Of a stretch of 36,365 nt of DNA, positions 24,534 to 29,120 are shown one piece after another (the first letter of the stretch is position 1; each line of letters starts with the position of its first letter). Made by a program: the position numbers and the translations under genes. The DNA lies in contig REAS01000046.1 of the NCBI GenBank assembly GCA_004294495.1, positions 1 to 36,365 of the forward strand, in the 5' to 3' direction. The notes below the pieces were generated by a model. The model saw only the letters and a list, made by a program, of their open reading frames with translations. It was not told where the DNA came from and ran no database searches. The stretch comes from Sphingobacteriales bacterium (lineage in GTDB: Bacteria > Bacteroidota > Bacteroidia > Sphingobacteriales > Sphingobacteriaceae).

Positions 24534-24672
24534 AATTTTTTAATAACAACAAATGGTAAACTAAATATTAATTAATTTGGTTTGCCATTTTTGCTTTTAG
24601 CGAAATGTAACAACATTTTCCTGTCGTAATTTATTGATTGTTATATAGATATATTTATCTGTTGATTTTAAA

Positions 24673-24739
24673 TTAACATTAGCATCACCTTTACTTAATC
24701 CTTAGTTAACATACAGGTAACATTTGGCTAATACTTTTG
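24673..24739 (+). promoter_or_regulatory. PHO-box-like heptamer array and -7 box upstream of TonB receptor
   Basis: Five heptamers lie at exact 11-bp steps with 4-bp spacers: TTAACAT (24673), ATCACCT (24684), TTAATCC (24695), TTAACAT (24706), GTAACAT (24717). A TAnnTTTG-type box, TACTTTTG, follows at 24732-24739. No TTG lies at the proper -33 position, which is covered by the last two heptamers. This is the layout of an activator-dependent promoter with direct-repeat sites, as for PhoB. Confidence 0.6.
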
Positions 24740-24760: not shown

Positions 24761-27559
24761 GTGAAGCAAAAGAATTTTAAAATTTTATTAAGTATTGTTT
24801 TTTTACTAACCACACTAGGTTTTAATGCAATTGCCCAAACAGGCAAAATTGCTGGTAAGGTAAGTGATAAAGCAACAGGCGAAACCTTAATAGGCTTAAC
24901 AGTTGGTGTTGAGGGTACTATGAAAGGAGCATCAACCGATATTGAAGGTCGTTATAGTTTAACTTTACCAGTTGGTGTTTATAGCTTAACATTTAGATAT
25001 ATAGGTTATCAAACTAAAACCGTGACTGGTGTAACAGTTAGTGATGGAAAAGTTACTAGTTTAGATGTTATTATTCCTGAAATTTCTAGCCAAAGTTTAA
25101 AAGAAGTTGTAGTAACCGCAAGTTTTAAGCAAGAAACGGTTGGAGCATTGTATGCGCAGCAGAAGAATAGTGCAAGAGTTTCTGATGGAATTTCTGCCGA
25201 GTCTATTAGAAAATCCCCCGATAAAAATACTGGCGAAATCCTTAAGCGTGTAAGTGGAACAACCATACAAGATAATAAATTTGTAATTATCAGAGGTCTT
25301 GCAGATAGATATAATTCTGCCTCACTAGATAATGGTGTTTTGCCAAGTACCGAGCCAAACAGAAAAGCTTTTTCTTTTGATATTGTACCATCCAATATGG
25401 TTGACAATATTGTAATTAGTAAAACGGCAACTCCAGACCTGTCTGGCGATTTTGCCGGCGGATATGTACAAATTTTAACAAAAGACATACCAGATAAAAA
25501 TTTTGTAAATTTTGGTATGGGTTATGGGTATAATACTCAAACAACATTTAAAAATTTTCAAAGTAGTAAACGCAATACTTCCGATTATTTTGGCTTTGAC
25601 AACGGGGAGAGAACACTAGCTGCAAATTTTCCGACAACAAATAAAATAGTAAACAATTTACTTACTCCGCAACAAAATATCAATGCATTAAAATCTTTGC
25701 CTCAGGATTTCAATGTTTATAATTCATCTGCACCATTAAATCAGAATTATCAATTTAGTATTGGTAAAGTTAAAGAATACGAAAAAACAGGTAATAAAAT
25801 TGGAGCAATTTTAGCCTTAACCTACAGAAACTCTCAAAATACAAATTTGGGAATTGACAGAAATTATCACGTTTATAATTTTAAAGATGATCAGTATAAG
25901 TTTTCCACAAACGTAGGTGCTCTTGTTAATTTGGCCTATAATTTTAAGAAAAGTAGAATTACGCTAAAAAATATTTTTAACCGTACTTTCGATGATCAAT
26001 ACACTTACAGGTCTGGAAGTAATGTAGCATTAAACGGAGATATTAAATTTTACGCTTTCGATTTAATTCAAAAATCTCTTTTTAAAACAGCTTTAGAGGG
26101 CGAACACAAAGTTGGTGAGCAAAATTCAAAATTTAAGTGGACTTTGGGTTTTGCAAATGTAATAAACGACCAACCTGATCAACGAAAAGTTAATTATATA
26201 AGAAATGACGCTGACAAAATAACTTCACCAGATGCTTATTATGCTTCGGTTACTAACATTGGTAAAGAAAATACACGATTATCGTCTTACCTAAAAGAAA
26301 ATATATTCTCTGCCGAAATTGGCTTTACCAAACCCATTAAATTTTTTAAAAATACTGCAACTTTTAAAACTGGCTTAACTAGTACATACAGAAATAGGGA
26401 TTTTAATGTAAGATTTTTAGGTGCTCAATTAATACCCGACTTTGATCCGTCGGTGGATAATTTAATCAGAATTAGACCTTTACAAAGTATTTTTGGTTTA
26501 GATCTTATAAATCAAGGAAAATATAAGTTAAATGAAATAAATAACGATGGAGATTCTTATGATGCTAATTCAATTGTAAATGCAGCCTATGCAATGTTGG
26601 ATAACAAGATTGGGAAAAAATCGAAAATTATTTATGGAATTAGGGTAGAGCAGTTTTCATTAAAGCTAAACACCGCTAAAACACCTAACATTGTTGAACA
26701 AAATTTTACAGATATACTACCATCTGTAAATTATGTGTATAGCGTAACAGAAAAAAGCAACTTTAGAGCTGCATATTTTAGAACTTTAGCAAGACCAGAG
26801 TTTAGAGAATTAGCTCCTTTTGCCTTTTACGATTACGAAAGAGCCTCAAATGTACAAGGTAACCCAAAACTTCAAAGAGCTATTATTGATAATGCAGATT
26901 TAAGATTTGAGTTTTTCCCTTCTCCAGGTCAAATAATGTCGGTGTCTGCATTTTACAAGAAATTTAAAAATGCAATTGAGAATAGTTTATATGATGCAAA
27001 CTCAACACCAGATGTTTCATATTTTAACGCCGATAAAGCAACGGTATTTGGTTTAGAATTTGAATTTAGAAAAGATTTGTCATTTATAGGAACTAATAAA
27101 GCTTTGAAAAATACAAGTATTTATACCAACCTATCTTTAATAAAATCAAAAGTAAAAAATCCAATAAATAGTAGTTTTATTGAATCAGAACGACCAATGG
27201 CAGGTCAATCCCCGTATGTTATAAATGCTGGCGTACAACATACCGCATTAAAAAACAAACTAAATCTTAACCTTCTTTATAATAGAATTGGCAAAAGAAT
27301 TATTGTTGCGGGGGGGCAACAGTTTGAGAGCGCATATGAAGCACCTCGTAATATATTAGATTTTCAACTAGGGTTAAAAGTTTTAAAAGCTAAAGGCGAA
27401 TTTAAATTAAACGCAAATGATATTTTAAACAACTACAATGATGTTTATTTAAATTCTCGTGATAGTAAAACAAACGTTCAATCATTAACAAATAATTACA
27501 CTATCGGAAAATATAAAACAGGTATTAGTTACTCATTATCATTTAATTATAATTTTTAG
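24761..27559 (+). CDS. TonB-dependent outer membrane receptor
   Basis: A 932-aa receptor that imports a ligand across the outer membrane using TonB energy. After a signal peptide (about 1-26, ending AIAQ) comes a carboxypeptidase-regulatory-like domain (about 28-115: GKVSDKATGETLIGLTVGVEG). The plug domain follows (TGEILKRVSGTTIQDNKFVIIRGL), then the C-terminal 22-strand barrel ending in Phe. I start at GTG 24761, since the longer frame begins with TTG inside the promoter. The gene is followed by a lipoprotein gene, and both have similar heptamer arrays upstream. It is not a SusC/RagA with a SusD partner; the lipoprotein is of another type. Confidence 0.9.
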   Translation: MKQKNFKILLSIVFLLTTLGFNAIAQTGKIAGKVSDKATGETLIGLTVGVEGTMKGASTDIEGRYSLTLPVGVYSLTFRYIGYQTKTVTGVTVSDGKVTSLDVIIPEISSQSLKEVVVTASFKQETVGALYAQQKNSARVSDGISAESIRKSPDKNTGEILKRVSGTTIQDNKFVIIRGLADRYNSASLDNGVLPSTEPNRKAFSFDIVPSNMVDNIVISKTATPDLSGDFAGGYVQILTKDIPDKNFVNFGMGYGYNTQTTFKNFQSSKRNTSDYFGFDNGERTLAANFPTTNKIVNNLLTPQQNINALKSLPQDFNVYNSSAPLNQNYQFSIGKVKEYEKTGNKIGAILALTYRNSQNTNLGIDRNYHVYNFKDDQYKFSTNVGALVNLAYNFKKSRITLKNIFNRTFDDQYTYRSGSNVALNGDIKFYAFDLIQKSLFKTALEGEHKVGEQNSKFKWTLGFANVINDQPDQRKVNYIRNDADKITSPDAYYASVTNIGKENTRLSSYLKENIFSAEIGFTKPIKFFKNTATFKTGLTSTYRNRDFNVRFLGAQLIPDFDPSVDNLIRIRPLQSIFGLDLINQGKYKLNEINNDGDSYDANSIVNAAYAMLDNKIGKKSKIIYGIRVEQFSLKLNTAKTPNIVEQNFTDILPSVNYVYSVTEKSNFRAAYFRTLARPEFRELAPFAFYDYERASNVQGNPKLQRAIIDNADLRFEFFPSPGQIMSVSAFYKKFKNAIENSLYDANSTPDVSYFNADKATVFGLEFEFRKDLSFIGTNKALKNTSIYTNLSLIKSKVKNPINSSFIESERPMAGQSPYVINAGVQHTALKNKLNLNLLYNRIGKRIIVAGGQQFESAYEAPRNILDFQLGLKVLKAKGEFKLNANDILNNYNDVYLNSRDSKTNVQSLTNNYTIGKYKTGISYSLSFNYNF

Positions 27560-27631
27560 TTAACATAAATTTAATCACACTTAACATTATGATAACTTAC
27601 ATTTTACATTTTAGTAAATTACAATTAACAT
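27560..27631 (+). promoter_or_regulatory. PHO-box-like heptamer array upstream of lipoprotein gene
   Basis: Starting directly after the receptor stop codon, TTAACAT-like heptamers occur at 27560 and 27571 and then, at exact 11-bp steps, at 27581 (TTAACAT), 27592 (ATAACTT), 27603 (TTTACAT), 27614 (GTAAATT) and 27625 (TTAACAT). TTTG follows at 27633-27636. No clean -7 box is visible before the ATG at 27669. Confidence 0.55.
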
Positions 27632-27668
27632 CTTTGAATAAATTAATTAACAATAATATAATAACAAA

Positions 27669-29120
27669 ATGAAAAAACAAGCGATTATTTTAGCAATGGC
27701 GGCACTAGTTTTTAGTGCAACATCGTGTAAAAAAAGTAAAGTAGATGAACCACAGGTTGTAATACCTAGTTCTACAATTGAGGTAACAGCTGATATCACC
27801 ACTAACACAGCTTGGTCTGCAGATAAGATTTACCTTTTAAAAGGCATTATTAATGTAAACAGCGATGCCACATTAACAATACCGGCAGGTACTTTAATTA
27901 AAGGAGATAAAGCATCAAAATCTTGTTTGGTTATAAATAGAGGTGGTAAAATTGATGCCCAAGGTACAATTGATAAACCTATCGTATTTACTTCTAATCA
28001 ACCAGTTGGTGCTCGTTCTTCTGGCGATTGGGGTGGCGTAATTTTGTTAGGTAAAGCGCCTAATAATCAAGCTTTAAACCAAAGTATCGAAGGTATTCCA
28101 ACTGATGCTTCAGGTAAAGCGTCGTACGGTGGTACTGATGCAGCTGATAATTCAGGTACTATGAAATATGTACGTATTGAGTTTGCGGGTGTGCCACTAT
28201 CCCCAGATAATGAAATAAATGGTTTAACTTTTGGGTCTGTGGGCTCAGGTACAACTATTGATTATATTCAGGTAAACCGTTCAGGCGACGATTCATTCGA
28301 GTGGTTTGGTGGTACAGTAAACTGTAAGCACTTAATAGCTGTAGCTGGTTTAGATGATGATTTTGATACTGATTTTGGTTACTCTGGTAAAATACAGTTT
28401 GCTTTAGGTGTTCGTTATCCTAACATTGCCGATGTTTCTGGCTCAAATGGCTTTGAGTCTGATAACGATGCTTCAGGTTCTGTTAAATTACCAAACACAG
28501 GCGCAATTTTCTCTAATATTACACTTGTAGGACCAATATTTAGTTTAACAACTGCACAGGTGCCTAATAGCATAAATGCAAATTATCAACATGCATCACT
28601 TATTAGAAGAAACTCTTCATTAAGTGTATTTAACTCAGTGTTAACGGGCTTTCCTGAAGGTGTAAGTTTTGATGATTCTAAAGTTGAAGTTGCAAAAGCA
28701 ACATCCAATAATCTAGTTACAGGCCGCAGTGCTTTTGAAAACAATATTATTTATGGTTGTAATACTAAATCAAATGAGGTTAAAGGTTCTAATAAGCTTG
28801 ATTTTGAAGTTACATTAAGAGCTAACAATACTTTTGATGCAACAAAACTAGCTAGTGATATATATACAGATGCTTACAAATATCCTGCTGATATAGTATC
28901 TCTTACTTCAGGTAAAATAGGTGTGCCTGATTTTACTCTTAAAGCAGCTTCTGCAGCTTCATCAGGTTCAATGTTTACTAATGCCAAAATAGCTTCAGAT
29001 ACTTTCTTCGAAAAAGTTGATTATCGTGGTGCGTTTGGTACTACAAATTGGGCTGCTGGTTGGGCAAATTTCGATCCCCAAACTATGCCTTATGATGCGC
29101 CGGGTAAAGTTAATAAATAA
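27669..29120 (+). CDS. Surface lipoprotein, probable beta-helix, partner of TonB receptor
   Basis: A 483-aa lipoprotein. The lipobox SATSC places the lipidated Cys at about residue 20, followed by KKSK. The body has repeated short beta segments such as LTIPAGTLIKGD and VINRGGKIDAQGTIDKPIVFTS, and a DWGGVILLG block, a pattern of right-handed beta-helix proteins. GDDSFEWFGGTVNCKHLIAVAGLDDDFDTDFG has many acidic residues that may bind a metal or ligand. It directly follows a TonB-dependent receptor and shares its type of regulatory array, so the two probably act together in surface capture and uptake. If the arrays are PHO boxes, the ligand would be a phosphate compound (inference). Confidence 0.78.
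   Translation: MKKQAIILAMAALVFSATSCKKSKVDEPQVVIPSSTIEVTADITTNTAWSADKIYLLKGIINVNSDATLTIPAGTLIKGDKASKSCLVINRGGKIDAQGTIDKPIVFTSNQPVGARSSGDWGGVILLGKAPNNQALNQSIEGIPTDASGKASYGGTDAADNSGTMKYVRIEFAGVPLSPDNEINGLTFGSVGSGTTIDYIQVNRSGDDSFEWFGGTVNCKHLIAVAGLDDDFDTDFGYSGKIQFALGVRYPNIADVSGSNGFESDNDASGSVKLPNTGAIFSNITLVGPIFSLTTAQVPNSINANYQHASLIRRNSSLSVFNSVLTGFPEGVSFDDSKVEVAKATSNNLVTGRSAFENNIIYGCNTKSNEVKGSNKLDFEVTLRANNTFDATKLASDIYTDAYKYPADIVSLTSGKIGVPDFTLKAASAASSGSMFTNAKIASDTFFEKVDYRGAFGTTNWAAGWANFDPQTMPYDAPGKVNK

Follow-up and report, generated by a model that had tools for sequence, protein, structure and literature searches.

A putative extended Pho box on a Bacteroidota-type promoter upstream of a TonB-dependent receptor gene

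Layout of the locus

The window considered here is a stretch of 36,365 nucleotides from a Sphingobacteriales bacterium of the family Sphingobacteriaceae (assembly GCA_004294495.1, contig REAS01000046.1, positions 1 to 36,365 of the forward strand). It encodes a TonB-dependent receptor, followed by a lipoprotein that is taken to be its partner (Table 1). The fold of the latter is probably a beta-helix. The receptor promoter lies downstream of a gene for RNase Y and carries a ladder of five heptamers, the starts of which are separated by exactly 11 bp. Four of the five are good matches, and the remaining one, at 24684, is degenerate. An 8-bp spacer, TTGGCTAA, separates the last heptamer from the -7 box TACTTTTG. 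Bacteroidota promoters normally have a -33 element, and in the receptor promoter sequence there is no TTTG at that distance from the -7 box. The initial annotation had described five TTAACAT-like heptamers in exact 11-bp phase, ending beside a TAnnTTTG-type -7 box devoid of a -33 element; this description holds to the base, with the qualification that the unit at 24684 is degenerate.

The list of open reading frames places the start of the receptor at TTG 24737, a codon that falls within the -7 box, and this start was rejected in favor of GTG 24761. In most orthologs of the family (L171-L200), the GTG start sits in a conserved leader, often CAAAAGTGAAA. An ORF caller favoring the upstream TTG would annotate across the -7 box.

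A second phased array precedes the lipoprotein gene. It consists of two pairs of heptamers, each with 11-bp periodicity, and of a weaker inferred promoter, the two heptamers of which are in phase with those at 27581 and 27592. Arrays are found before the same lipoprotein gene in several relatives (L010, L014, L106, L157, and L160).

Table 1. Features of the receptor-lipoprotein locus, in window coordinates. Slots are counted upstream from the -7 box, offsets are those at which TAAY was counted in the 30 orthologs, and scores are from the leave-one-out heptamer matrix.
Feature	Position	Strand	Score (bits)	Remarks
Vestigial slot 6, TTGATTT	24662-24668	+	0.5	Equivalent slot (offset -69) filled in 24/30 orthologs
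Slot 5, candidate PhoB half-site TTAACAT	24673-24679	+	9.2	TAAY (offset -58) in 26/30 orthologs
Slot 4, degenerate half-site ATCACCT	24684-24690	+	0.7	TAAY (offset -47) in 4/30 orthologs; likewise degenerate in 26/30
Slot 3, candidate PhoB half-site TTAATCC	24695-24701	+	4.6	Filled (offset -36) in 28/30 orthologs
Slot 2, candidate PhoB half-site TTAACAT	24706-24712	+	9.2	Offset -25; 29/30 orthologs, 29/29 DUF47 promoters
Slot 1, candidate PhoB half-site GTAACAT	24717-24723	+	7.8	Offset -14; 30/30 orthologs, 29/29 DUF47 promoters
-7 promoter element TACTTTTG	24732-24739	+		Fits TAnnTTTG; in 30/30 family orthologs
TonB-dependent receptor gene	24761-27559	+		932 aa, GTG start; CarboxypepD_reg-like PF13715, Plug PF07715, OMP_b-brl_3 PF14905
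Two 11-bp pairs before lipoprotein gene	27560-27598	+		TTAACAT 27560, TTAATCA 27571; TTAACAT 27581, ATAACTT 27592
Weaker inferred promoter	27603-27636	+		TTTACAT 27603, GTAAATT 27614, 8 bp, -7-like CATCTTTG 27629-27636; spacing by eye
Lipoprotein gene, receptor partner	27669-29120	+		483 aa; no Pfam match; relatives beside most receptor loci

Strength and conservation of the array

The heptamer matrix used to score the slots was built from 29 orthologous promoters, leaving out the receptor promoter of the window itself. The four-slot sum of the receptor array, 30.6 bits, is the highest in the window on either strand, compared with a mean best score of 9.2 bits and a maximum of 20.5 bits in 100 simulated windows. 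The second-best independent array of the window, at 27581, scores 21.1 bits and is the one located before the downstream lipoprotein gene.

Conservation was assessed in 30 receptor orthologs of the family, the window's own included, that were chosen by protein similarity alone. Their promoters were anchored on the TAnnTTTG nearest to the gene start, and TAAY was counted at each offset. The phase of the array accounts for 141 counts and any other phase for at most 9, and pairs of TAAY 11 bp apart number 106, as opposed to 1.9 in shuffled sequences. From the occupancy of the individual slots (Table 1), it follows that the true layout is one of six slots, the fourth of which is degenerate nearly everywhere.

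Enrichment of 11-bp TAAY pairs persists among 28 loci drawn from across the class (37 versus 1.5). TAnnTTTG is present in just seven of these loci, in most of which the array lies at least one unit further upstream, typically 19 bp from the -7 box. Loci from other families of the class in which the displacement is a single 11-bp unit, from 8 to 19 bp, are L237-L239 and L243-L245; the helical face is kept. The 8-bp spacing is also found in orthologs from Mucilaginibacter, Flavihumibacter, Pedobacter, Leadbetterella, Pseudarcicella, and Lacihabitans. In a control covering the 142 genes of 17 loci, every one of the 17 receptor genes has a ladder of at least three slots; such ladders are otherwise present only at three lipoprotein genes, one phoB, and five other genes. 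A protein of ∼130 residues with a CCYV-like motif, encoded near the receptor in Mucilaginibacter (L009:11162 (-), L011:4324 (-), and L012:9488 (+)), has an 11-bp ladder of its own and is a candidate member of the Pho regulon.

Genes that share the pattern

Genome-wide scanning was carried out by pattern search rather than with the matrix. The strict pattern, KTAAYRY-N4-KTAAY...TAnnTTTG with the -7 box at 8-bp spacing, occurs at only two sites in the 2.38-Mb genome from which the window derives, whereas the reversed pattern does not occur at all. Less stringent searches were of little use: the loose pattern TTAACAT N15 TTAA, which dispenses with the -7 box, is uninformative because it gave 18 matches compared with 15 for its reverse, and because allowing one mismatch in the -7-box pattern gave 40 matches compared with 39 in the control, exact matches alone are counted. 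Behind three relaxed matches in the same genome (on contigs C189, C178, and C5), there is no correctly placed phosphate gene.

One of the two strict sites is the receptor promoter. The other (C131:8590) precedes an operon, here called DUF47-PiT, that encodes a DUF47 protein (PF01865) and a PHO4-family phosphate permease (PF01384) and lies directly behind a gene for a PhoR-type histidine kinase. The genome search proposed in the initial annotation, for arrays upstream of phosphate genes, therefore returned this operon as the sole other strict match. Among 30 DUF47 loci chosen by protein, 29 have TAnnTTTG, and the basic pair of heptamers is present in every one of those 29; no other target carries the pattern as constantly as the DUF47-PiT promoter behind phoR. 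A search of the genome for PhoU found none.

Across 61 genomes of the family, the strict pattern has 105 matches in 54 genomes, compared with five for the reversed pattern. Strict matches are missing from the other seven genomes, although most of these encode PhoB. The genes behind the matches include DUF47-PiT (41 cases), orthologs of the receptor (11) and of its lipoprotein (3), and at least nine phosphoesterases or nucleases assigned by Pfam. The types confirmed by Pfam in relatives comprise alkaline phosphatase, type I phosphodiesterases, metallophosphoesterases, a phosphoesterase, an exo/endonuclease-phosphatase, and a secreted endonuclease. Thus, the expectation that phosphatase genes would carry arrays is borne out in relatives (alkaline phosphatase, phosphodiesterases, and metallophosphoesterases) but not in the genome of the window, where no strict match precedes a phosphatase gene. 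About 40% of the family matches precede genes without an evident role in phosphate metabolism, ECF sigma factors among them; at the latter, the matches could reflect either a cascade or a related motif.

Relatives in which the array is located before ECF sigma factor genes are L069, L112, L117, L125, L134, L135, and L148, and at L117 the sigma factor gene is divergent from that of a phosphodiesterase with its own array. Such arrangements make phosphate-controlled sigma cascades in these relatives possible. Strict arrays are also carried by the DUF2490 genes of two relatives (L095 and L096); no clear array was seen before the DUF2490 copy of the genome studied here. It is possible that DUF2490 contributes an outer-membrane component to the phosphate response.

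The candidate regulator

Four OmpR-type response regulators are encoded in the genome. Nine loci of other lineages carry a regulator gene next to that of the receptor, and one of the four regulators (C28:3166-3858) shares 51-63% identity with its product, compared with 27-38% for the remaining three. The initial annotation had named either a Bacteroidota version of PhoB or another OmpR-family activator, and this disparity resolves the choice towards PhoB. In these nine loci, phoB adjoins the receptor, and in one locus it is DUF47-PiT that does so. At a Flavobacterium locus (L016), the gene order is phoR, phoB, receptor, lipoprotein. Comparison with sequences in the PDB places the C28 regulator nearest to MtrA, BaeR, and RegX3; because full-length similarity alone does not give the name PhoB, that name is taken from gene neighborhood. 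The pairing of this PhoB with the array is likewise proposed from the genes that surround it. PhoB is conserved in 59 of the 61 family genomes and is therefore so nearly universal that its co-occurrence with the arrays is uninformative.

In the genome studied here, phoB stands alone on contig C28, adjoining neither phoR nor the receptor gene, and phoR directly precedes DUF47-PiT (L057:7516-10334, on C131), with no phoB beside it. The two unlinked proteins, PhoB of C28 and the PhoR-like kinase of C131, would presumably function as a pair. Such a split between phoB and phoR seems to be usual in the family (L067 and L072).

A Pho box reading of the array

Several properties of a Pho box come together at this locus. 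The receptor array consists of tandem 7-bp direct repeats with 4-bp spacers, in 11-bp units; an array of the same kind precedes phosphate transport genes (DUF47-PiT) in the same genome; and that genome encodes both a PhoB-type regulator (C28) and a PhoR-like kinase (C131). Arrays before phosphatase genes occur in relatives, namely at alkaline phosphatase (L168), phosphodiesterases (L117 and L120), and metallophosphoesterases. The heptamer itself is TTAACAT/GTAACAT and not the proteobacterial CTGTCAT. The earlier reading of the array as a PhoB-type Pho box is well supported by this combination, and, arguing from sequence and gene context, we consider it very probable that the array is an extended Pho box and that the receptor-lipoprotein pair belongs to the Pho regulon and is activated upon phosphate starvation. 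Points against it are the seven family genomes that lack a strict match, the ∼40% of family matches at genes of no evident phosphate role, and the separation of phoB from phoR and from the receptor gene in the genome studied here.

From this we infer PhoB binding, recruitment of polymerase, induction at low phosphate, and the nature of the cargo, as follows. At low phosphate, phosphorylated PhoB (C28:3166-3858) would bind the 7+4-bp units head to tail, as tandem dimers each covering 22 bp. Slots 1 and 2 would form the basic dimer site, and slots 3-4 and 5-6 could hold further dimers, slot 4 being weak. The nearest dimer, 8 bp from the -7 box, would stand in for the missing -33 element and recruit RNA polymerase carrying the main sigma factor of Bacteroidota to the receptor promoter. 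PhoB bound at the second array would drive transcription of the lipoprotein partner; the presence of this array (27560-27636) suggests that the receptor and lipoprotein genes have separate promoters, each putatively controlled by phosphate. Activation of both promoters by PhoB would place the pair, like DUF47-PiT, in the Pho regulon. The difference between a single dimer site at the transporter and as many as three at the receptor may determine the order in which the two respond. The pair most likely takes up phosphorus-containing compounds, a guess that derives from its regulation.

Three other explanations of the array must be weighed against this one. The array might be bound by a different OmpR-family regulator, with the phosphate genes being only part of its regulon. 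The 7+4 tandem layout is, after all, common to OmpR-family regulators, the motif of Riemerella anatipestifer PhoP was compared with ArcA (PMC9603813), and many family matches precede ECF sigma factors and other receptors. However, there are only four such regulators to choose from, a single one of which has a close receptor-adjacent counterpart, and the target kept most constantly is the DUF47-PiT promoter behind phoR, making this alternative unlikely. Repression rather than activation of the receptor by a Pho box would find a parallel in R. anatipestifer PhoP, some direct targets of which are raised and others lowered (PMC9603813), but the array takes the place of the -33 element, at a constant 8 bp from the -7 box, and leaves that box uncovered, which is the position of an activator, and the matching receptor of Flavobacterium johnsoniae is induced at low phosphate (PMC8115612). 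We rate repression as more improbable still.

Given the high AT content of the window, in which TTAA words are frequent, a chance array might be invoked, or curvature arising from phased A/T tracts without the involvement of any specific regulator. This explanation is already contradicted by the distance between the receptor array and the best simulated window, by the scarcity of matches to the reversed pattern in the 61 genomes, by the conserved occupancy of the slots in 30 orthologs, with the other phases empty, by the excess of 11-bp TAAY pairs over shuffled sequences, and by the lack of ladders at ordinary genes nearby; its probability is negligible.

Extended beyond this locus, the reading of the array as a Pho box raises the prospect of an operator that is resolved to the base and holds for much of the Bacteroidota. 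It would consist of TTAACAT units in 11-bp phase, set 8 or 19 bp from a TAnnTTTG -7 box; the transporter would have a single dimer site and the receptor three, the number of sites setting the order of induction, and arrays also precede ECF sigma factor genes. We regard the odds on this broader proposal as evenly balanced. If it is true, the arrays at ECF sigma factor genes would put further nutrient-uptake loci under phosphate control by way of a cascade. The pattern is specific enough that a plain search yields two sites in the genome, both of them sensible. With it, the members of the Pho regulon in Bacteroidota, among them receptors and lipoproteins of unknown function, could be listed from sequence alone.

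Comparison with known systems

The Pho box is a known kind of operator, of which the sequence and geometry described here, on a Bacteroidota promoter, represent a variant for which we found no such description. The PHO box of Escherichia coli PhoB comprises CTGTCAT direct repeats in 7+4-bp units (PMC4415409). Like the receptor array, it has 7-base repeats and 4-base spacers, with several 11-bp units in a row, and takes the position of the upstream promoter hexamer. It differs in that the array has TTAACAT in place of CTGTCAT, a Bacteroidota-type -7 box (TAnnTTTG), and up to six units. The initial annotation was correct that the heptamer departs from CTGTCAT, but it resembles both the PhoP box of Bacillus and the PhoP core of Riemerella. 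The former consists of tandem TT(T/A/C)ACA repeats (PMC6327384), a half-site nearly the same as that of the array (TTAACA), although Bacillus belongs to another phylum, with another promoter type, and its promoters retain a sigma-A -35 region.

Within the Bacteroidota, phosphate control is known from expression studies (PMC8115612) and from the binding of PhoB to a pst promoter, namely that of pstC in Bacteroides fragilis (PMC3547664). In the searchable literature, we found no operator for this phylum that had been defined to the base and linked to phosphate genes. The DAP-seq motif of R. anatipestifer PhoP has the core TTTAACA (PMC9603813), the same as that of the array and from the same phylum, and one of the targets bound in EMSA is a TonB-dependent receptor. 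The motif was published as ArcA-like and as that of a virulence regulator; the 11-bp ladder, the spacing to the -7 box, and phosphate genes were not its point (PMC9603813), and its authors gave it no Pho-box reading. Both this and the rise of pstS in a double mutant of R. anatipestifer (PMC5399024) speak against the Pho box reading. The array, for its part, suggests that the Riemerella motif may be a Pho box.

The closest parallel to the locus as a whole is the phoBR-TBDT-lipoprotein FII cluster of F. johnsoniae, Fjoh_0543-0546. In this cluster the receptor has the same domains, with a lipoprotein of the same kind behind it, and these two genes, Fjoh_0545 and Fjoh_0546, located beside phoBR, are up by 8.0 and 9.9 log2 units, respectively, at low phosphate (PMC8115612); the available part of the source yielded no promoter motif for the cluster. 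The order at the Flavobacterium locus L016 is that reported for Fjoh_0543-0546 (PMC8115612). The receptor-lipoprotein pair of the window differs in not lying beside phoBR, and its 483-residue lipoprotein is related in position to lipoprotein FII of F. johnsoniae.
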